Below, piece after piece: positions 1,946 to 63,726 of a DNA stretch of 64,000 nt. The position numbers were made by a program, and so were the translations under genes. Within the stretch, counting starts at the first letter, position 1. Each line of letters opens with the position of its first letter. The DNA is from a virus. The notes under the pieces are model-generated. The model did no database searches. It had not been told where the DNA came from and worked only from the letters and a program-made list of their open reading frames with translations. The stretch covers positions 62,001-126,000 of the IMG/VR virus record IMGVR_UViG_3300010885_023630; one strand, written 5' to 3'.

Positions 1946-3913
1946 ATGGCAATCGGACGCATTACCGGACCAATGCTATACGGCAACCTGGAACGTCAGG
2001 GTGTTGATTTAGCGATAGACGGAAATTTAGTTTACGCTGACGTAACTAATCGCCGTGTTGGTATTAATACATCCTCTCCTCAGTACGCACTAGATGTCCT
2101 TGGAAACGCTCATATAGGTAATCTATATGTTCAAGGTAATCAATTAACTAGCGACACAGGGATAATCAACTTTGGATTACCTGCTAATATTTCGTTAGCT
2201 GGAGGAACCCCGTACGATGTGTTGTACACAGACGGAAATGGAAATTTAGCATTTGCCAACTTAAACGTAATTTCGGGATTAGATGCGTTTACCGGTAATA
2301 ATATTATCTTAGGATCTAATACAGCCGGTTATATGGTAAGTAATGCTGTAACACTTACTACTAATACAACAGTGACAGACGGATTAGCACAGATAAACTA
2401 TGTACTAGGTAAACTAGTACCACCAAGCCCTCCACCGTTCCCTGGAGCAAACACACTGGCATTAACAACTAGTACCACTTCGGCCTACATGACTAATTAT
2501 GTACAGCCAGATAATTCTGGATGGGGTAATTTAAGTATAGCCGCTGGTGCCGCAGTTAACGCGGTGCGTACAACCACATACGCAACAGGTACAACTATCA
2601 GCGCAGTTGGACCGGGTAACATGGGTACTGTAACAGCATATCTCAACGGCAGAGATGCCGGCAACGTAACCTTAACTGGAACCAGCAGTGGAACATATAG
2701 CAATTTAATTATAGCCAACAACCAAGATTACCACAATGTGGTCAGCACAGTTACGGCCGGTTTCTGGTATAGTTTTGATGCCAGGGCGGCAGGTAATGCG
2801 CCAACTGGTTGGAACAGAGTACACATCAGAGATTCGGGAACAGGTGGCAATACCAACGTAGTAACTTGGTTTTACGATTCGGCTGCTCCAGGAACACCAA
2901 CATTTAGTAATACCAGCATATCGTTAACAACAAATACAGTTACATATTCTAGCACTATACCAATGTTAACCAGTGGTGCTCAGGCAACGCTTAAAGGTAA
3001 TGTGGCGGTACTAAGCGGCAATACCTATCCACAATCAACAAACCTAACATCATCTACAGCTGCAGGTGGTGCGTTTCAAGCACCAACATCTGTAACGTAT
3101 GCCGCTGCCGGTATAACAACACCATTGGCACAAAATTTATATGTAAGCTCAGGTAGCGCATATTTCCAAACAACTTCTAGTATTATCGCATCTGGGTTTG
3201 GGTCAAGTCCCACAGGTCCTTCACTAACAGTTAATAACAGCTACAATACCGGCTCGGCAACATTTAGCCCTGGGGTAACAATACTATATAAAAATGGTAC
3301 TGGTAATAACATTGAAGAAACTAGTATTCCTGTAACCAGTGTGGGCACAGGATCTGGCAATGCTTACCGTATTGTAAATCCTGGTTCAAGCGACACTCCT
3401 GCGTATACAGGAAGCGAAGCGGCATTTAATAGTACAACAGGACCTTTCTACACATACGACGCAACCAACGTAGCCGCAACAATAAAATTTGATCAAACAA
3501 ATTATTCAACTGGGTATTGGCCCGTCGGCCCTAACTTGTCCGCACAAGCGGCCAGTCAGTACTTTACATTTAAGTTTGTGCGTACGGCTGTTAGTAAATT
3601 TAATATTTCCTGGACCGGCACTATTGCCGGCCTATGGGTGGCATTACCTGGACAAAGTAATACCTATTCTGGACTTAACGGATGGTATACTATGAGTAGT
3701 CCTTACGCAGGCTCTGGAATCCCGGGAACAGTTGGCGGTAACGGAAGCAACGGATGTAGTGTGGGCGGATTTAGTTTAACTGGCGGTAGCTACACAGCAA
3801 CATTTGGTACGCTAAGTTCCAGTAACGCAACCGGCAATGAAATTTATGTAAGAATTAAATTAACAAGTGGACAAAGTATTTCTGCTTTAAGCATAGTGGC
3901 GGCAACTAACTAA
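1946..3913 (+). CDS. Tail fibre protein (655 aa)
   Basis: A 655-residue fibre-like protein. The N-terminus carries 'NRRVGINTSSPQYALDVLGN' (residues about 35-54), a motif common in phage tail fibres, followed by 'GNLYVQGNQLTSDTGI'. The remainder is Gly/Thr/Ser/Asn-rich with a proline stretch near residues 157-165 and predicted beta structure. The stop codon overlaps the next start by one base, so the two genes are translationally coupled. It probably binds the host surface, as inferred from fold and context. Confidence 0.75.
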   Translation: MAIGRITGPMLYGNLERQGVDLAIDGNLVYADVTNRRVGINTSSPQYALDVLGNAHIGNLYVQGNQLTSDTGIINFGLPANISLAGGTPYDVLYTDGNGNLAFANLNVISGLDAFTGNNIILGSNTAGYMVSNAVTLTTNTTVTDGLAQINYVLGKLVPPSPPPFPGANTLALTTSTTSAYMTNYVQPDNSGWGNLSIAAGAAVNAVRTTTYATGTTISAVGPGNMGTVTAYLNGRDAGNVTLTGTSSGTYSNLIIANNQDYHNVVSTVTAGFWYSFDARAAGNAPTGWNRVHIRDSGTGGNTNVVTWFYDSAAPGTPTFSNTSISLTTNTVTYSSTIPMLTSGAQATLKGNVAVLSGNTYPQSTNLTSSTAAGGAFQAPTSVTYAAAGITTPLAQNLYVSSGSAYFQTTSSIIASGFGSSPTGPSLTVNNSYNTGSATFSPGVTILYKNGTGNNIEETSIPVTSVGTGSGNAYRIVNPGSSDTPAYTGSEAAFNSTTGPFYTYDATNVAATIKFDQTNYSTGYWPVGPNLSAQAASQYFTFKFVRTAVSKFNISWTGTIAGLWVALPGQSNTYSGLNGWYTMSSPYAGSGIPGTVGGNGSNGCSVGGFSLTGGSYTATFGTLSSSNATGNEIYVRIKLTSGQSISALSIVAATN

Positions 3914-58386: not shown

Positions 58387-58463
58387 GGGCCTATAGCTCA
58401 GTTGGTTAGAGCAGAGGACTCATAATCCTTTGGTCCCTGGTTCGAGTCCAGGTGGGCCCACCA
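58387..58463 (+). tRNA. tRNA-Ile (CAT anticodon, lysidine type) or Met
   Basis: Acceptor GGGCCTA pairs with TGGGCCC; anticodon stem gagga/tcctt with loop ctCATaa; T-loop GGTTCGAGTCC; encoded CCA. The anticodon region and variable loop (TTGGTC) resemble the E. coli tRNA-Ile2, which reads ATA after lysidine modification, so Ile is favoured over Met. Confidence 0.85.
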
Positions 58464-58474
58464 AATTGAAAACT

Positions 58475-59245
58475 ATGTTTTACGAAAAATTACCATTTAC
58501 CATTGACGTTGAGCGAGCTAGATATGATTTAAATCATACTATATTGCCTCTTGGTGAACCTGTAATGCAAGGTGCCGAATACAACAGCACAGAGTATCAT
58601 GGTTTTGGTGGGTACAGCGTTTTAAGCAGGACTGGAGATTGGCGCGATGGTTGGGAAATGGGACATATTGCTCACTCAGAAGCAAGACAGTATGTTTACC
58701 CAGACGGTATTCCTAACTATCGTGCGTTAAAGTATTTGAATTTTTCGCATGGGTTTGAACACAATACACCTACACAGGCGTATGTGGGAGAGATTCAGCG
58801 AATTGTTGAACAGTTGGCCAATAATGGATTTTATCCTAGACGGGCTCGTATAAGTTTAATGAAAGCAGGAGCAGTAACAACAGTACATCAGGACGGATCA
58901 ATTGATTCGTATATGGCAAGAGTTCATATACCTATTGTAACAAATGACGCTTGTATACATAGTTGCGAAGGAATAGATCTTCATATGCCGGCTGATGGTA
59001 GCGTATATATAATGTGGGTTAATCGGTTACATCAAGCAGTGAATACATCCACGCAAGATAGATATCATATATTGATGGATGTGTATGATACAAATGGATT
59101 AACAGAAAATTTTAAATACGCAAAGGACATAAGTATACTACAACAAGAAGCAGATGCGTTTAGGCAAAAACTTGATGTTATTACTTTATCTCCGGAAGAA
59201 ATTGTAACATACGACGCTATAAAAGCTCAATTTATAAAGAAATAA
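58475..59245 (+). CDS. Aspartyl/asparaginyl beta-hydroxylase-like 2-oxoglutarate oxygenase
   Basis: A 256-residue protein (start at 58475, 11 nt after the tRNA end; earlier in-frame start lies in the tRNA). The Fe(II)-binding triad is visible as H138-x-D140 ('VTTVHQDGS') and H186 ('RLHQAVN'), with R197 ('RYHILMDVYD') for 2-oxoglutarate. This fits the Asp_Arg_Hydrox/aspartyl beta-hydroxylase family. The target could be a protein side chain, nucleotide or metabolite. No RBS is visible; after tRNA 3' processing the mRNA would start shortly before ATG. Confidence 0.8.
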   Translation: MFYEKLPFTIDVERARYDLNHTILPLGEPVMQGAEYNSTEYHGFGGYSVLSRTGDWRDGWEMGHIAHSEARQYVYPDGIPNYRALKYLNFSHGFEHNTPTQAYVGEIQRIVEQLANNGFYPRRARISLMKAGAVTTVHQDGSIDSYMARVHIPIVTNDACIHSCEGIDLHMPADGSVYIMWVNRLHQAVNTSTQDRYHILMDVYDTNGLTENFKYAKDISILQQEADAFRQKLDVITLSPEEIVTYDAIKAQFIKK

Positions 59246-59246
59246 T

Positions 59247-59331
59247 GCCCCGATGGTGGAATTGGTAGACACGCTGGTCTTAGAAGCCAGTACCGCAAGG
59301 TGTGCGAGTTCAAGTCTCGCTTGGGGCACCA
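59247..59331 (+). tRNA. tRNA-Leu (TAG)
   Basis: Acceptor GCCCCGA pairs with TTGGGGC; anticodon loop ctTAGaa in stem gctgg/ccagt-type; long variable arm; T-arm GCGAGTTCAAGTCTCGC; encoded CCA. It begins 1 nt after the hydroxylase stop codon. Confidence 0.95.
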
Positions 59332-59349
59332 ATCAAATAGGAAACTGAT

Positions 59350-59751
59350 ATGTTAGAATGTTTAATCGCAGGCGATTCAATAGCAGTTGGGGTTGCCAAT
59401 GTAAGAAAAGAATGTGTCGCTTATGCCAAGGGTGGGATAAACTCCAAACAATGGCTAGATACAAATATTCAAAATACTCCTTTAATGGCCAAACATGTAA
59501 TTATTAGTCTTGGCTCAAATGATCACAAGTATATTAAAACTGAAGAAGAGTTGCGTACCGTCAGACAGCTAACCAAAGCTGATAGAGTATACTGGGTATT
59601 ACCCAGTACTAAATTTCCAGTTCAACGTGATGCTATTTGGCGAATTGCCAACGAGTACCACGATACCGTACTTAAAACTGAACGTATGCAAGCAGACAAC
59701 GTCCACCCAAGTTGGGCCGGATACAAGGAAATAGCCAAGGCATCCGAATGA
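59350..59751 (+). CDS. Small SGNH/GDSL hydrolase-like protein (133 aa)
   Basis: A 133-residue compact SGNH hydrolase: Ser10 in 'LIAGDSIAVG' (block I), G29 in 'KGGIN' (block II), N57 in 'ISLGSNDH' (block III) and D116/H119 in 'ADNVHPSW' (block V). All four blocks are present, so an esterase or deacetylase activity is likely. It is shorter than most family members. RBS aggaaa before ATG 59350. The stop overlaps the AhpD-like start (ATGA). Confidence 0.85.
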   Translation: MLECLIAGDSIAVGVANVRKECVAYAKGGINSKQWLDTNIQNTPLMAKHVIISLGSNDHKYIKTEEELRTVRQLTKADRVYWVLPSTKFPVQRDAIWRIANEYHDTVLKTERMQADNVHPSWAGYKEIAKASE

Positions 59752-60260
59752 AATGGGTTTCTGTAATACAGGAAATGATACCTGAGTACGCCAAGGATGC
59801 TAAGATAAACCTTGACACAGTACTTAACAATGGCACAATACCCGCTGATGAATCTGAGGGTATAGCACTATCAGCGGCTCTTGCTACCGGTAATACCAAG
59901 TTAACAGCACTTATACAAAGCGATATGGAAAACGCAGTAGAGCGTGATGCGGCCTTGGGCATCGGTGTTTTAATGGCACAAAACAATGTATGGTATTCGT
60001 ATGTTGATATGACACGAGATTTACAATTATCAGCATTGCCGGCTATGTTGCGTATGAGTATTACTGCCAACAACGGTGGAACAACTAAAGAACGTTTTGA
60101 AGCATACAGCTTGGCCGCAAGTATTGTGGGAAAATGTCAATTTTGTACTAAAACGCACTACGACAACTTAAAAAAGTTAGGATATACAGTAGAGCAACTT
60201 CGTGATCTTGGACGTATTGTGGCTACCATTAATTCAATAGCAAAAGTTCTAAATAGCTAA
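59748..60260 (+). CDS. AhpD-like alkylhydroperoxidase (170 aa)
   Basis: A 170-residue protein. The CxxC at C130/C133 in 'GKCQFCTKTHYD', with E118 and H137, gives the AhpD active-site set; in the well-known mycobacterial enzyme E118, C130, C133 and H137 are at the same numbers, whereas H132 is here Phe. AhpD-type proteins reduce peroxides or recycle a peroxiredoxin. A possible role is protecting infected cells from oxidative damage. The start at 59748 overlaps the SGNH stop; longer reading starts lie within that gene. Confidence 0.85.
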   Translation: MKWVSVIQEMIPEYAKDAKINLDTVLNNGTIPADESEGIALSAALATGNTKLTALIQSDMENAVERDAALGIGVLMAQNNVWYSYVDMTRDLQLSALPAMLRMSITANNGGTTKERFEAYSLAASIVGKCQFCTKTHYDNLKKLGYTVEQLRDLGRIVATINSIAKVLNS

Positions 60261-60269
60261 CAAAACACA

Positions 60270-60298
60270 TTGACACAGTATAGCGTTTAATATACAAT
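60270..60298 (+). promoter_or_regulatory. Sigma-70 promoter before tRNA-Leu(TAA)
   Basis: TTGACA and TACAAT are separated by 17 bp, with flanks nearly the same as the promoter at 58349, suggesting duplication of a promoter-tRNA unit. Confidence 0.88.
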
Positions 60299-60322
60299 AA
60301 GACTTTAGTTAGCATACAAAAT

Positions 60323-60409
60323 GCGAGTATGGCGAAATAGGTAGACGCAAGAGACTTAAAATCTCTCGGGGGAGACCCCATGCCAGTTCGATTCTGGCTA
60401 CTCGCACCA
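60323..60409 (+). tRNA. tRNA-Leu (TAA)
   Basis: Acceptor GCGAGTA pairs with TACTCGC; anticodon stem agaga/tctct with loop ctTAAaa; long variable arm; T-arm GCCAGTTCGATTCTGGC; encoded CCA. Confidence 0.96.
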
Positions 60410-60415
60410 TAAATA
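60408..60415 (+). promoter_or_regulatory. Possible late promoter core (CATAAATA) overlapping the tRNA CCA end
   Basis: Seven of eight bases match; two bases are the CA of the tRNA 3' CCA. It lies 86 nt before the TRAP protein start; the core at 60465 is closer. Confidence 0.4.
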
Positions 60416-60464
60416 TACTGTATAAAGCCCGGGATAAACACGCTCGGGTTAGCTAAAACGGCTA

Positions 60465-60472
60465 AATAAATA
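60465..60472 (+). promoter_or_regulatory. T4-type late promoter core (AATAAATA)
   Basis: Seven of eight bases match. It lies 29 nt before ATG 60502. The Shine-Dalgarno ggga is in a 10-bp palindrome ctcccgggag (60483-60492). Confidence 0.7.
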
Positions 60473-60501
60473 CATATATACACTCCCGGGAGAATTCCAA
60501 G

Positions 60502-61476
60502 ATGACAACACCAAGAAAAGTACGCTGGCTAATCGCACATGAGCCACAAGAGCTATTTGTACGTACAGCTCGAGCTTTTTCACAAGAATTAGAAAAGCGT
60601 ATTCCAGGACAGATCGCAATTGAAATTGTAACAGTTCCAGAGTACATTAAAGAACACGAAGGTTCTAAGAACCTACAAACAATTCTAGACGAAAATCTAG
60701 ACAAGCAAGGTGTAGCAGTTGAAGCCCTTTTTGATGCGTTACGTGACGATATCCAAATGAGCCAAACACAGGTTAGCGTAGTTGGTTACAAAGACCGTGC
60801 TTTCCACGCATTGGATTTACCATTCTTATTTGACAATCATGAACACGTTAGCCGTGTACTAGAAGGTCCAATTGGTGAAGAAATTTGTGCCAACTTAGAA
60901 AAAGTTAGCGATGTTAAAGGCCTAGCATTTACATACTCGGGCGGTTATCGTGTGGTTGGTTCTAACCACAAGATTGAAGACCTAGCCGACTTGGCTAGCC
61001 AAAAGGTTATTGTTAGCAACCGTGGTCCACGTGCCGATACATTTGAATCAGTTGGTGTAGAGCCTGTTGTTGTTAGCCCACATTTGTGGGGCGGATACGA
61101 CACAGTTCCAGAAGGTGGTGCCGCTAATGCTATTGAAACTACATACTTACGTTTTAAAGGTACACACATCCTTAAAACTAATCACAGTATTTTCATGACA
61201 ACCATCTTGACCAACAAGGCATTTTGGGAAAGTCTAACAGCAGAACAGCAGACAGCATTTGAAGAAAGTGCTAAAATTACAGCACGTATTGAACGTCAGT
61301 GGGCCATTGCCGATGCTGAGAAGTTCGAACAAGACGCATTAGCAAATGGCATTGAGATCACTGAACTATCAGAAGAAGATACAAAGACAATGAAGCACAA
61401 GTCACGTTACACTTACTTGAAGTTTGATGCGGAAAATAATCGTAGTGATTTGATCAAAAGAATCCGTTTAAGCTAA
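60502..61476 (+). CDS. TRAP transporter solute-binding protein (DctP-like), no signal peptide
   Basis: A 324-residue DctP/TAXI-type solute-binding protein. It starts at what would be the mature N-terminal strand ('KVRWLIAHEPQELFVRTARAF') with no signal peptide or membrane anchor, so it should stay in the cytoplasm or in the virion. Family features: 'ALDLPFLFDNHEHVSRVLEG', 'GLAFTYSGGYRVVGSNHKIE', 'FESVGVEPVVV' and 'THSIFMTTILTNKAFWESLT'-like C-terminus. No TRAP membrane subunits are in the window. It has its own late promoter, strong RBS and clean codon pattern, so it is probably made in quantity late in infection. It may bind a dicarboxylate-like ligand. Confidence 0.8.
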   Translation: MTTPRKVRWLIAHEPQELFVRTARAFSQELEKRIPGQIAIEIVTVPEYIKEHEGSKNLQTILDENLDKQGVAVEALFDALRDDIQMSQTQVSVVGYKDRAFHALDLPFLFDNHEHVSRVLEGPIGEEICANLEKVSDVKGLAFTYSGGYRVVGSNHKIEDLADLASQKVIVSNRGPRADTFESVGVEPVVVSPHLWGGYDTVPEGGAANAIETTYLRFKGTHILKTNHSIFMTTILTNKAFWESLTAEQQTAFEESAKITARIERQWAIADAEKFEQDALANGIEITELSEEDTKTMKHKSRYTYLKFDAENNRSDLIKRIRLS

Positions 61477-61482
61477 TAGAGG

Positions 61483-61511
61483 TTGACAACAAAAGGTAAA
61501 TAAACTACAAT
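61483..61511 (+). promoter_or_regulatory. Sigma-70 promoter upstream of tRNA/RNA cluster
   Basis: TTGACA and TACAAT are separated by 17 bp. A late-like GGTAAATA lies in the spacer (61495-61502). No equally good promoter is seen before the structured RNA. Confidence 0.8.
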
Positions 61512-61521
61512 AGATACTATT

Positions 61522-61653
61522 ATGAAACTAAGAACTTGTAAACATTCCATAAGTAACCAGCCACAATTAGGCGTGTCAGCCTATTGGCCTACTTTTGCGA
61601 TGTCAACAATTATTAGTGATAATCGTGAACCACTAGTCGGGGGTCTCAGTTAA
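61522..61653 (+). CDS. Possible leader peptide (43 codons)
   Basis: An ORF of 43 codons starting 'MKLRTCKHSI' and ending 'EPLVGGLS', about 4 nt after the predicted start of transcription and without an RBS. Its stop codon TAA lies in the 5' arm of a 12-position helix that overlaps the next terminator. It may be a leader peptide that couples translation to read-through; it may also be only part of a structured leader. Confidence 0.4.
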   Translation: MKLRTCKHSISNQPQLGVSAYWPTFAMSTIISDNREPLVGGLS

Positions 61654-61686
61654 CGTATAGTACCTAACAGTATTTTAACTAAGACC
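61642..61686 (+). promoter_or_regulatory. Attenuator-like hairpin overlapping a terminator
   Basis: GGTCTCAGTTAA (61642-61653) pairs with TTAACTAAGACC (61675-61686), 11 of 12 positions. The 3' arm shares ACC (61684-61686) with the terminator stem, so full formation of both is not possible. Confidence 0.6.
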
Positions 61687-61718
61687 TCGGAACTAAACAC
61701 TCCGAGGTTTTTGTTTTT
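61684..61718 (+). terminator. Rho-independent terminator in the leader of the tRNA cluster
   Basis: Stem ACCTCGGA/TCCGAGGT (8 bp, 9-nt loop) followed by ttttgttttt. It lies before the two small genes and the RNA/tRNA cluster, so expression of these needs read-through or another promoter. Confidence 0.88.
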
Positions 61719-61732
61719 ATAAGGAAAAGAAA

Positions 61733-61885
61733 ATGTTGAAAACTGATAAACCAAAAGTTTTGCCTAGTCAGTATACAATAACGCAGGCACAAAAACTTGC
61801 GTTGATAGAAGGCAAACTACAACGAGCCGAAGCTCACGTTAAGGCATTAACAGAAATTGTTGAAAAGCTGGAACGTAAGAAGTAA
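61733..61885 (+). CDS. Tiny helical protein (50 aa), unknown
   Basis: A 50-residue protein with aagga 7 nt before ATG. The second half is a charged, heptad-like helix ('LIEGKLQRAEAHVKALTEIV'), likely a coiled coil. Not recognised. It directly follows the terminator and precedes structured RNA A. Confidence 0.6.
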   Translation: MLKTDKPKVLPSQYTITQAQKLALIEGKLQRAEAHVKALTEIVEKLERKK

Positions 61886-62230
61886 GCTCAAAGTGTGTAA
61901 GGGAAACGAGGTCCCAGTCTGCACTTAAAACATGGACAAACGGGCGGACAGTATGATGAAAGCGTTGGCGATAACACGTGAGTAAAACTACTGGTCAGGG
62001 TATTAACCCTGTCTATGGCTTGGCAACAGGCCATATCTTAAAGCGTATTAGACGAGAGCGTCCAAAGGTCCTGAACACCTTGTGGGGCAGGGCACGGAAT
62101 CACCGTGACACTAGTATGCTTTAAGATACACTTTAGAAGAACATGCCTAAGCACCACATTGATAAAGTGGATTGCCAGAGCAGCCGGATATAAACGGAAA
62201 GTAGGTTGACAATCCTACCACTAAAGTGTA
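61886..62230 (+). ncRNA. Structured RNA A, unassigned (possible GOLLD-like 5' part)
   Basis: No ORF spans these 345 nt. Direct reading shows many compatible helices: an 18-bp stem with two G-U pairs (62034-62051 with 62111-62128); an adjoining 8-9-bp stem (62129-62136 with 62221-62228); hairpins at 61996-62011 (cagggt/accctg), 62015-62034 (atggc/gccat), 62051-62062 (gacg/cgtc) and 62093-62107 (cacgg/ccgtg); and a 6-bp stem 61917-61922 with 61944-61949. The two long stems abut and could stack. It ends 14 nt before tRNA-Tyr. Boundaries and family are not certain. Confidence 0.7.
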
Positions 62231-62243
62231 AAATTGTTTTATT

Positions 62244-62330
62244 GGAGATGTAGGAAAATTGGTAACCCCAGTGGACTGTAAATCCGCCGCCCGCAAGGCA
62301 CTACTGGTTCAACTCCAGTCGTCTCCACCA
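62244..62330 (+). tRNA. tRNA-Tyr (GTA)
   Basis: Acceptor GGAGATG pairs with CGTCTCC; anticodon stem gtgga/tccgc with loop ctGTAaa; long variable arm as in bacterial tRNA-Tyr; encoded CCA. Confidence 0.95.
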
Positions 62331-62339
62331 ATTTAATTT

Positions 62340-62416
62340 CGGAGTGTAGCACAGCCTGGTAGTGCGCCTGGTTTGGGACCAGGAGGTCCAAGGTTCGAAT
62401 CCTTGTACTCCGACCA
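62340..62416 (+). tRNA. tRNA-Pro (TGG)
   Basis: Acceptor CGGAGTG pairs with TACTCCG; anticodon stem cctgg/ccagg with loop ttTGGga; T-arm AAGGTTCGAATCCTT; encoded CCA. Confidence 0.96.
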
Positions 62417-62424
62417 TGTTTTAT

Positions 62425-62500
62425 TGGCCTATAGCTCAGTTGGTAGAGCACTTGACTGTTAATCAAGGTGTCCCTGGTTCGAGCCCAGGTTGGCCAGCCA
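62425..62500 (+). tRNA. tRNA-Asn (GTT)
   Basis: Acceptor TGGCCTA with TTGGCCA (one T-T mismatch); anticodon stem cttga/tcaag with loop ctGTTaa; discriminator G as expected for Asn; encoded CCA. Confidence 0.94.
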
Positions 62501-62801
62501 AATTTAGTCCCGCAAAGGCTATGACGTTCAATCCCTAGAATGTTATCCTCAAACTTGCGAGGCGGGTGTAAGTCCCGTCATTAAAAACTGATACACAGGA
62601 TGGCGTTGTGTACAGCGGATATTCAGCCTGAGGACTGTCGTCCAATAGTTAAAAGACTATATGATATCACTTTAGGGAGTGATGCCATATAAAAACACAT
62701 CTATGATCTGGGATATGCGAATGCGTACATAGAAACTAAGATCCCACTTGTTAGTGGGTACGGGAGTGAAAATCTCCCTAGGTGTGTTTTTATATGTCTA
62801 T
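62501..62801 (+). ncRNA. Structured RNA B, unassigned (possible GOLLD-like 3' part)
   Basis: No ORF spans these 301 nt. Helices read directly: a perfect 14-bp stem 62686-62699 with 62783-62796 that encloses a hairpin-rich loop; hairpins 62743-62758 (cccact/agtggg) and 62762-62778 (gggag/ctccc); a possible pseudoknot from 62700-62705 with 62728-62733 and 62709-62714 with 62741-62746; upstream a hairpin 62666-62683 (atcact/agtgat), a stem ctga/tcag with tacaca/tgtgta (62588-62626), and cccgc/gcggg (62509-62513 with 62562-62566). Some helices are alternatives to each other. It ends 5 nt before tRNA-Ile(GAT). Confidence 0.7.
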
Positions 62802-62878
62802 GCCACCATAGCTCAGTTGGTTAGAGCACCGTCTTGATAAGGCGGGGGTCCATGGTTCAAATCCATGTGGCGGCACCA
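62802..62878 (+). tRNA. tRNA-Ile (GAT)
   Basis: Acceptor GCCACCA with TGGCGGC (one A-C mismatch); anticodon stem ccgtc/ggcgg with loop ttGATaa; encoded CCA. Confidence 0.93.
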
Positions 62879-62887
62879 GTATATTAA

Positions 62888-62895
62888 GATAAGTA
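62888..62895 (+). promoter_or_regulatory. Possible late promoter core (GATAAGTA) directly before tRNA-Ala
   Basis: It ends 6 nt before the tRNA 5' end, so a T4-type start would fall at 62901-62902, at the mature tRNA start. Same variant as at 31521 and 47038. Confidence 0.4.
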
Positions 62896-62901
62896 AACAA
62901 T

Positions 62902-62977
62902 GGGGGTATAGCTCAGCTGGGAGAGCAGTAGCTTTGCAAGCTAAAGGTCGTCGGTTCGATCCCGTCTACCTCCACCA
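62902..62977 (+). tRNA. tRNA-Ala (TGC)
   Basis: Acceptor GGGGGTA pairs with TACCTCC (one G-T); anticodon loop ttTGCaa in stem gtagc/gctaa, with one G-A mismatch at the outer pair; encoded CCA. Confidence 0.93.
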
Positions 62978-62995
62978 AACACAAGGAGAAGCTGT

Positions 62996-63139
62996 ATGTC
63001 AAAGAATGAAGACACTTTAAACAAAGCATACGGCAACATGCCTAAGGACGTTGGTTTTATTGTTGATCTTGATTGGTTACCTACGTGGAGAGGCTTTAAG
63101 TATTACTACTATAAGTTAATACGTAAAGCAACAAGATAA
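62996..63139 (+). CDS. Tiny protein (47 aa) among tRNAs, unknown
   Basis: A 47-residue ORF with aaggag 7 nt before ATG. It reads 'MSKNEDTLNKAYGNMPKDVG' then an aromatic/basic C-terminal half with four consecutive Tyr and a Lys/Arg-rich end. The good RBS makes it likely to be expressed from the tRNA transcript. Not recognised. Confidence 0.6.
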   Translation: MSKNEDTLNKAYGNMPKDVGFIVDLDWLPTWRGFKYYYYKLIRKATR

Positions 63140-63145
63140 GATTTT

Positions 63146-63232
63146 GGAGGGTTGGCCGAGCGGTAAGGCAACAGATTGCTAATCTGTCATCCAGCAATGG
63201 GTGGATTGGTTCGATTCCAATACTCTCCGCCA
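63146..63232 (+). tRNA. tRNA-Ser (GCT)
   Basis: Acceptor GGAGGGT pairs with ACTCTCC; anticodon stem acaga/tctgt with loop ttGCTaa; long variable arm; discriminator G; encoded CCA. Confidence 0.95.
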
Positions 63233-63237
63233 TTTAT

Positions 63238-63313
<76 letters not shown>

Positions 63314-63318
63314 AGTTT

Positions 63319-63394
63319 GGGTCGTTAGCTCAGTTGGTAGAGCGTCTGCCTTACACGCAGAATGTCGGCAGTTCGAACCTGTCACGACCCACCA
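63319..63394 (+). tRNA. tRNA-Val (TAC)
   Basis: Acceptor GGGTCGT pairs with ACGACCC; anticodon stem tctgc/gcaga with loop ctTACac; encoded CCA. Confidence 0.96.
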
Positions 63395-63400
63395 GTTTAT

Positions 63401-63477
63401 GGCTCGGTAGTTCAGTCTGGCAGAACGTTGGTCTCCAAAACCAAATGTCGGAGGTTCAAATCCTTCCCGGGTCGCCA
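63401..63477 (+). tRNA. tRNA-Trp (CCA)
   Basis: Acceptor GGCTCGG with CCGGGTC (two G-T pairs); anticodon stem ttggt/accaa with loop ctCCAaa; discriminator G; encoded CCA. Confidence 0.93.
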
Positions 63478-63487
63478 ATATAACTAT

Positions 63488-63565
63488 AGTGCGGTGCCAG
63501 AGTGGTCCAATGGGTCGGATTGCAAATCCGTAAAGCCGTGAGTTCAAATCTCACCCGCACTTCCA
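63488..63565 (+). tRNA. tRNA-Cys (GCA)
   Basis: Acceptor AGTGCGG pairs with CCGCACT; anticodon loop ttGCAaa in stem cgga/tccg; discriminator T as expected for Cys; T-arm GTGAGTTCAAATCTCAC; encoded CCA. Confidence 0.92.
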
Positions 63566-63571
63566 ATCTTA

Positions 63572-63647
63572 GGTAATGTAGAACAATTGGTAGTTCACCT
63601 CCTTCATACGGAGACTGTTACTGGTTCGAGTCCAGTCATTACCACCA
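63572..63647 (+). tRNA. tRNA-Met (CAT), elongator type
   Basis: Acceptor GGTAATG pairs with CATTACC, including a normal first pair, so it is not an initiator; anticodon loop ttCATac in stem ctcc/ggag; encoded CCA. Confidence 0.9.
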
Positions 63648-63649
63648 CA

Positions 63650-63726
63650 CGGCCCTTAACTCAATTGGATAGAGTGCTAGTCTTCGAAACTGGAAGTTGG
63701 GAGTTCGAATCTCTCAGGGCTGACCA
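63650..63726 (+). tRNA. tRNA-Arg (TCG)
   Basis: Acceptor CGGCCCT with AGGGCTG (one G-T pair); anticodon stem ctagt/actgg with loop ctTCGaa; encoded CCA. Last tRNA of the cluster. Confidence 0.92.

Follow-up and report, generated by a model that had tools for sequence, protein, structure and literature searches.

Positions 61890–62228 of a 64-kb stretch of viral DNA (the window, meaning the whole stretch analysed) belong to an undescribed family of structured phage RNAs, here called the ornate RNA, whose family membership, structure and position are shown by sequence. The family is new and well supported, with well over 100 homologous loci in IMG/VR, and it very probably represents a conserved structured RNA that stands at the head of phage tRNA arrays. 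Upstream of it lies a transcription attenuator, whose parts are likewise shown, including a leader peptide that contains all 20 amino acids. That this is a ribosome-mediated, pan-amino-acid attenuator is likely; its switching in vivo is inferred, and there are no transcript, translation or phenotype data. The combined reading, in which the ornate RNA serves in cis as the leader module of a tRNA operon under attenuator control and the failure of any aminoacyl-tRNA would open that operon, is only slightly more likely right than wrong, both the switching in vivo and the function of the RNA being inferred.

An earlier sequence-only reading of the window had claimed a structured RNA at 61886–62230, and this claim held: the RNA is conserved among relatives, which preserve its helices and not a reading frame. 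The minimum free energy (MFE) of these 345 nt is −110.7 kcal/mol; 100 dinucleotide shuffles give −88.3 ± 4.8, and not one of them reaches so low a value (z = −4.67). The MFE fold shows the two helices that had been described, one of 18 bp (Pe in Table 1) and an adjoining one of 8 bp (Pf), as well as several hairpins. The accompanying statement that the stretch is without any ORF is not literally true, as 48-aa ORFs exist on both strands. The best conserved part had been overlooked, namely the first ~100 nt, a pseudoknotted core that many phages share with almost no change in sequence, and the operon leader with its pan-amino-acid attenuator upstream had not been visible to that reading. Homologues without covariation were named there as a finding that would refute the claim; covariation is present, and the claim is not refuted.

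No Rfam family reaches its gathering score over 61886–62230, and permissive Rfam scans of the window and two homologues return only tRNAs and chance matches. Covariance models of T-boxes and riboswitches have no match in the same sequences, and a weak permuted-tmRNA match (18 bits, cut-off 47) falls on the tRNAs downstream of the ornate RNA. The ornate RNA is therefore not a tmRNA, RNase P RNA, group I intron or GOLLD RNA. These scans uphold the earlier statement that the first three are not matched, and they include the GOLLD check that had been proposed with it. As for the suggested likeness to large ornate RNAs, the setting in phage tRNA islands agrees but the sequence does not, and with about 170–340 nt the RNA is also smaller.

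Table 1. Features of the attenuator, the ornate RNA and the tRNA array in the window.
Feature	Position	Strand	Description	Basis
Promoter	61483..61511	+	sigma70-type, TTGACA-17-TACAAT	sequence
Leader ORF	61522..61653	+	43 codons, MKLRTCKHSISNQPQLGVSAYWPTFAMSTIISDNREPLVGGLS, all 20 amino acids	
Antiterminator 5' strand	61640..61653	+	last codons and stop of leader ORF; limits approximate	fold
Antiterminator 3' strand	61675..61688	+	overlaps terminator 5' arm; limits approximate	
Intrinsic terminator	61684..61718	+	ACCTCGGA-9 nt-TCCGAGGT then TTTTTGTTTTT	
Small ORF	61733..61885	+	50 aa, between attenuator and ornate RNA	
Pseudoknotted core	61890..61994	+	P1, P2, P3, Pc, Pd	covariance models R1, R2
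P1	61892-61896 with 61921-61925	+	AGUGU/GCACU	98.8% of cells paired in alignment A4
P2 hairpin	61901..61915	+	GGGA/UCCC around conserved 7-nt loop AACGAGG	
P3, pseudoknot with P1	61917-61920 with 61934-61937	+	GUCU/GGAC	
Covarying loop contact	61911..61941	+	G61911 (last base of P2 loop) with C61941 of AACGGGCGG	
Pc	61949-61953 with 61989-61993 (span 61949..61993)	+	CAGUA/UACUG, encloses Pd	
Two extra hairpins	61996..62035	+	CAGGGTATTAACCCTG; TATGGCTTGGCAACAGGCCATA	MFE
Pe, long arm	62034-62051 with 62111-62128	+	18-bp helix, TATCTTAAAGCGTATTAG / CTAGTATGCTTTAAGATA	
Pf, closing hairpin	62129-62136 with 62221-62228	+	8-bp helix, CACTTTAG / CTAAAGTG	MFE
tRNA-Tyr(GTA)	62244..62330	+	first of downstream array	
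Rest of array	62340..63726	+	tRNAs Pro, Asn, Ile, Ala, Ser, Gly, Val, Trp, Cys, Met, Arg	

The core comprises about 100 nt in the order P1, P2, P3, then AAYGGGCGG, Pc and Pd. Across the family, P1 has the consensus AGUGU/RCACU, with its outer A-U pair also occurring as C-G and U-A, while P2 is 100% paired, with double-sided changes in three of its four pairs and a loop of consensus AACGAGR. P3 pairs the joint between P2 and P1 with the joint behind P1. In a test run outside the covariance model it reaches a mean of 3.7 Watson-Crick pairs versus 2.1 with swapped partners, and none of 1000 shuffles scores as high. The contact between the last base of the P2 loop and the Y of AAYGGGCGG is G/C in 25 loci and A/U in six; the two exceptions carry an insertion at that site. 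Double-sided changes affect all five pairs of Pc and 10 of 11 pairs of Pe, which directly follows the core in most loci and is paired in 230 of 231 cells across 21 loci (best of 1000 shuffles, 204). An extra helix lies at the place equivalent to the extra hairpins of the window in L153, L155, L156, L159 and L163–L165. Pf takes the form of a short hairpin in most relatives, with the sequence ACACATTC-GCAA-GAGTGTGT or a variant of it.

In alignment A4 (33 loci), 98.4% of cells are paired, with double-sided changes in 13 of 18 pairs; its covariation score is reached by none of 500 shuffles, and slid partners pair in 32–41% of cells. The fitting of A4 to the R1 structure biases this alignment in favour of that structure. 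In alignment A2, which was aligned without structure, 100% of cells are paired and double-sided changes occur in 11 of 22 pairs. Two candidate interpretations were rejected. Pf has no consistent U-run and is not an intrinsic terminator, and a pairing of the 5' GUGUGU with ACACAC of Pf is not tenable, the partner being absent in L119 and L121 and P1 being paired in 98.8% of cells. As a separate observation, the first tRNA-like element (acceptor and T arm) directly behind Pe in L119 and L121 seems to be interrupted by an insertion of ~100 nt or more.

The window belongs to a 126,980-bp IMG/VR virus record, and the terminase encoded there shares 54% identity with its counterpart in jumbo phages, among them PA5oct. 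An exact 18-mer of the ornate RNA (GGAAACGAGGTCCCAGTC) occurs in 14 IMG/VR contigs, 13 of which are clear homologues, and two further sequence patterns enlarged this set. Among 50 records of terminase relatives, 15 contain the RNA according to covariance model R1 (E < 1e-4). A degenerate pattern scan returned at least 119 stretches, and model R2 accepts 98 of the newly obtained loci (E < 1e-8), of which 87 differ from one another over their first 100 nt. The window itself matches R1/R2 with 86 bits (E about 1e-19). Twelve candidate loci found by pattern (L087, L097, L098, L100, L102, L105–L108, L110, L111, and L115) were dropped for want of any likeness beyond the pattern, as were the weak model matches L140–L142 and window 45563. 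Three pattern matches in bacterial genomes were rejected because the rest of the RNA is absent and no array lies behind them, and the pattern scan of the bacterial genome collection revealed no copy of the ornate RNA. Among isolated phages, BLASTN with the window RNA, L086, L133 and a 71-nt consensus core returned nothing meaningful. The five isolated jumbo phages close by terminase (PA5oct, Phosso, Atu_ph07, Vibrio 2.275.O and Munch) lack the ornate RNA, and no pan-amino-acid leader was found in their examined tRNA regions. The neighbouring DctP-like and 486-aa proteins, used as bait, have no detectable relatives in IMG/VR.

Nearly every copy of the ornate RNA lies on the same strand as a phage tRNA array and 0.1–1.5 kb upstream of it. 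In the first set, same-strand tRNAs follow downstream at all sites with enough sequence (33 of 36; the remaining three are cut within 280 nt), the first of them being most often tRNA-Tyr or tRNA-Gln. Among held-out sites, a same-strand tRNA occurs within 1.5 kb in 68 of 72 and is absent in four. Some loci also have tRNAs 0.3–1.4 kb upstream. A near-consensus promoter ends 17–47 nt before the ornate RNA in the tRNA-Gln-type loci (L099, L150, L103, L116, L117 and L120), in L148 copy 1 and in L154. The window array is followed by two more tRNAs in the record. Overall, the arrays are long, 3–8 kb, and mostly untranslated. In the loci scanned, where an array can hold up to 31 tRNAs, no intrinsic terminator was detected before the last tRNA, which agrees with a single long transcript.

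Further elements were observed in and around these arrays. Between tRNA-Asn and tRNA-Ile, window positions 62501–62800 are non-coding and structured-looking and contain a tRNA-like 3' half, TTTGGTTCGAGTCCAAA, which ARAGORN does not call and which may be an interrupted or degenerate tRNA or another RNA. Just behind tRNA-Gln, L099 and L103 share an element, AAGTGGAAAGCAAGAGCCACAAAGTAA, followed by possible hairpins; this element may represent another conserved non-coding RNA within the arrays. At window positions 58387–61476, three single tRNAs (Met, Leu, Leu) alternate with metabolic-looking genes, which are aspartyl/asparaginyl hydroxylase-like, carboxymuconolactone decarboxylase-like and DctP solute-binding.

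We infer that the ornate RNA probably acts in cis, because it heads the tRNA blocks and because the arrays are long, largely untranslated and without intrinsic terminators up to the last tRNA. It is also possible that a stable RNA cut from the tRNA precursor acts in trans, for example by serving as a scaffold, by diverting tRNA nucleases as a decoy, or in association with the ribosome. The models for such a role are RNA C and RNA D of T4 and the GOLLD and ROOL nanocages, which may be such cases. In its favour, GOLLD and ROOL, both of unknown function, are also neighbours of phage tRNA islands (PMC12286853), two stable RNAs are encoded beside the tRNAs of T4, and the strongly conserved loops and joints would suit a binding surface. 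By R2, moreover, 24 of 26 carrier records have a single copy. Against it, the ornate RNA almost always heads a tRNA block, and in the other two records (G086 and G088), which have two copies, each copy heads a block of its own, an arrangement unneeded in trans; in addition, the T4 tRNA region has no R2 match.

A second possible alternative is processing of the precursor or protection of its 5' end, where the pseudoknot and a hairpin near the first tRNA would block exonucleases or place RNase P or RNase E cuts, leaving the polymerase unaffected. Pseudoknots occur in exonuclease-resistant RNAs. In many loci, among them L151, L093 and L152, Pf ends a short distance from the first tRNA, and in tRNA-Gln-type loci the ornate RNA lies near the transcript 5' end. 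However, the spacing before the first tRNA is not constant, ranging from about 140 nt to more than 1 kb, and no Pf is apparent in L119 or in L148 copy 1. It is unlikely that the RNA is a second sensor, i.e., a riboswitch or T-box-like element that reads a ligand or uncharged tRNA and gates the array after the attenuator. The leader position would agree with this, as would the conserved joints and the covarying loop contact, both common in ligand-binding RNAs; however, Rfam yields no T-box or riboswitch match, and without a consistent U-run in Pf there is no obvious expression platform behind the RNA.

The attenuator of the window spans 61483–61718, ahead of the ornate RNA (Table 1). Its leader ATG lies 10 nt behind the -10 box, and the mRNA is therefore probably leaderless or near-leaderless. 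A scanner for a leader followed by a terminator, applied to both strands of the 64-kb window, finds this leader ORF as its sole match. The same layout recurs upstream of homologous loci: a promoter, a short ORF, a GGGTCC-like element and a GGACCC that overlaps a terminator with a T-run. The leader peptides are 38–58 aa long and contain 20/20 amino acids in 26 of 33 loci and 18–19 in the rest. Held-out loci, which had not been used to notice the pattern, reach 20/20 in 53 of 78 cases and at least 19 in 61 of 78. This count takes the best candidate per site, and the control follows the identical rule: at 2,590 random positions in the same contigs, a 20/20 leader with a terminator was never found and one with 19 amino acids twice. 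The scanner found no leader with terminator in 10 of the 78 held-out loci, and in both G086 and G088 one of the two copies lacks the pan-amino-acid leader and terminator.

A referee may object that such leaders arise by chance or composition and that the short peptides are kept for some other reason, which we consider very unlikely. In support of the objection, the loci are related by descent and their counts are not independent trials, and 2% of simulated 44-mers with the leaders' own composition reach 20/20 (0.3% of simulated 44-mers otherwise; 17 of 2,322 44-aa windows of the window's own proteins). Against it, the 20/20 composition recurs in both sets despite leader sequences that differ widely (e.g., L084, L153, L156, L157, L165 and L277), and the control gave 0/2,590. 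The presence of all 20 amino acids fits a tRNA operon. The idea that leader codons are chosen for the phage's own tRNAs was not borne out, such codons not being enriched.

A promoter lies within 140 nt upstream of 87 of 93 leader ORFs in homologous loci, and in 26 of these 87 the ATG follows the -10 box by 6–10 nt (within 12 nt); these 26 leader mRNAs, which would serve as sensors, are likely to be leaderless, an inference from sequence alone. In 89 loci, the antiterminator 5' strand lies at a median of 27–0 nt before the end of the stop codon, and its 3' strand overlaps the terminator arm in 89/89. The antiterminator duplex has an energy of -24.2 kcal/mol, versus -18.4 with swapped and -12.0 with letter-shuffled partners. 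When folded with the leader end free, most loci form the long antiterminator, and with the leader end covered they form the terminator. Two features of a ribosome-mediated attenuator are present: a promoter and short leader ORF upstream of an operon, and a mutually exclusive antiterminator and intrinsic terminator with the antiterminator 5' strand at the ORF end.

The tRNA-Gln-type loci have a second promoter between attenuator and ornate RNA, and the switch therefore cannot be the only control there. These loci also lack the ORF of 50–58 aa that many other homologous loci have at this place, for which no Pfam or PHROG match was found (two proteins tested). The small protein of the window is similar to its equivalents in many of L084–L095, L112, L152, L156, L157 and L163. 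L119 and L148 (copy 3261–3361, minus strand) present a different arrangement, in which two tandem consensus promoters lie up to ~230 nt upstream of the RNA and a second conserved putative RNA, CTGCCCGAGTAGC...CAGCCTGATAGCTGACAGGC, between them replaces the pan-amino-acid leader.

In the mechanism proposed here, a ribosome that completes the leader ORF would cover the antiterminator 5' strand, so that the terminator folds and the array stays off. If any aminoacyl-tRNA is lacking, possibly after the destruction of host tRNAs by anticodon nucleases, the ribosome would stall and leave the 5' strand free, the antiterminator would form, and the polymerase would pass through the ornate RNA into 3–8 kb of tRNA genes. 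According to attenuation theory, fast reading of the regulatory codons leads to the terminator and a slow ribosome to read-through, and modelling indicates that few regulatory codons confer low sensitivity to mild limitation (PMC1183508). Each amino acid occurs once or a few times in the leader peptide, and the low sensitivity expected from this is a point against the proposal; the sensor should miss mild limitation and react when a tRNA is almost completely lost. Such a response would fit nuclease attack.

The ornate RNA itself would most likely keep the mostly untranslated transcript alive, a function that is inferred. It may do so by making the polymerase resistant to Rho and pausing, like the put, nut and rrn boxA RNAs, or, alternatively, by protecting or processing the transcript 5' end. 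Antitermination specifically is an inference without assay data, and we would rather doubt than assert it. Internal terminators that would demand it were sought and not found, which removes one reason for an antiterminator; antitermination would therefore have to act on Rho or pausing. A bolder reading, toward which we lean slightly, is that of a universal aminoacyl-tRNA sensor, in which one leader of 38–58 codons opens when any of the 20 pools collapses and the ornate RNA then sees the long tRNA precursor to completion.

Ribosome-mediated attenuation is already known, while a pan-amino-acid leader on a tRNA operon is likely to be new. A search of the openly licensed literature revealed neither a 20-amino-acid leader peptide nor an attenuator on phage tRNAs, and to our knowledge no earlier attenuator senses all 20 amino acids; if the mechanism is true, this leader would be the first. 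The reason why phages carry tRNAs has been debated for decades. If the proposal is true, these phages do not merely express tRNAs; they use a single peptide to gauge the failure of any tRNA pool and respond by turning on replacements, and this would be evidence that they regularly encounter tRNA loss during infection. The view of phage tRNAs as an answer to tRNA-targeting defence would then become testable by reporter assay, and the function of the ornate RNA can be approached through mutation of a defined pseudoknot.

Several known systems resemble parts of this arrangement. GOLLD and ROOL are likewise phage-borne, elaborate and pseudoknotted, lie near tRNA islands and have no known function (PMC12286853). 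The ornate RNA differs from them in having no covariance-model match, also at permissive E-values, and in standing at the array head behind an attenuator; many GOLLD members exceed 800 nt, compared with about 170–340 nt here. RNA C and RNA D of T4 are also phage non-coding RNAs encoded beside tRNAs, but they lie at the downstream end of the T4 cluster and measure 119–139 nt, and homology to either is not seen, R2 having no match in T4 69–75 kb (L289). HK022 put, lambda nut, rrn boxA and EAR are cis-acting antitermination RNAs. The likeness to these is confined to the suggested function, a leader RNA that lets the polymerase cross long stretches; no homology in sequence or structure has been shown, and there is no Rfam match. 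Phage tRNAs have been reported to replace host tRNAs lost to nucleases and so to counter tRNA-targeting defences (PMC10264068, PMC11555353). Both studies concern the tRNAs themselves; by word search, PMC10264068 mentions neither a leader nor an attenuator nor a promoter. A parallel in layout is offered by the trp, his and ilvGMEDA attenuators, which share the promoter, the short leader ORF, the antiterminator 5' strand at the ORF end, the overlapping terminator and the operon. Known attenuator leaders carry at least two codons for the amino acid that their operon produces (PMC1183508), whereas in the phage leader every one of the 20 amino acids appears once or a few times, and the operon behind it makes tRNAs instead of biosynthetic enzymes.
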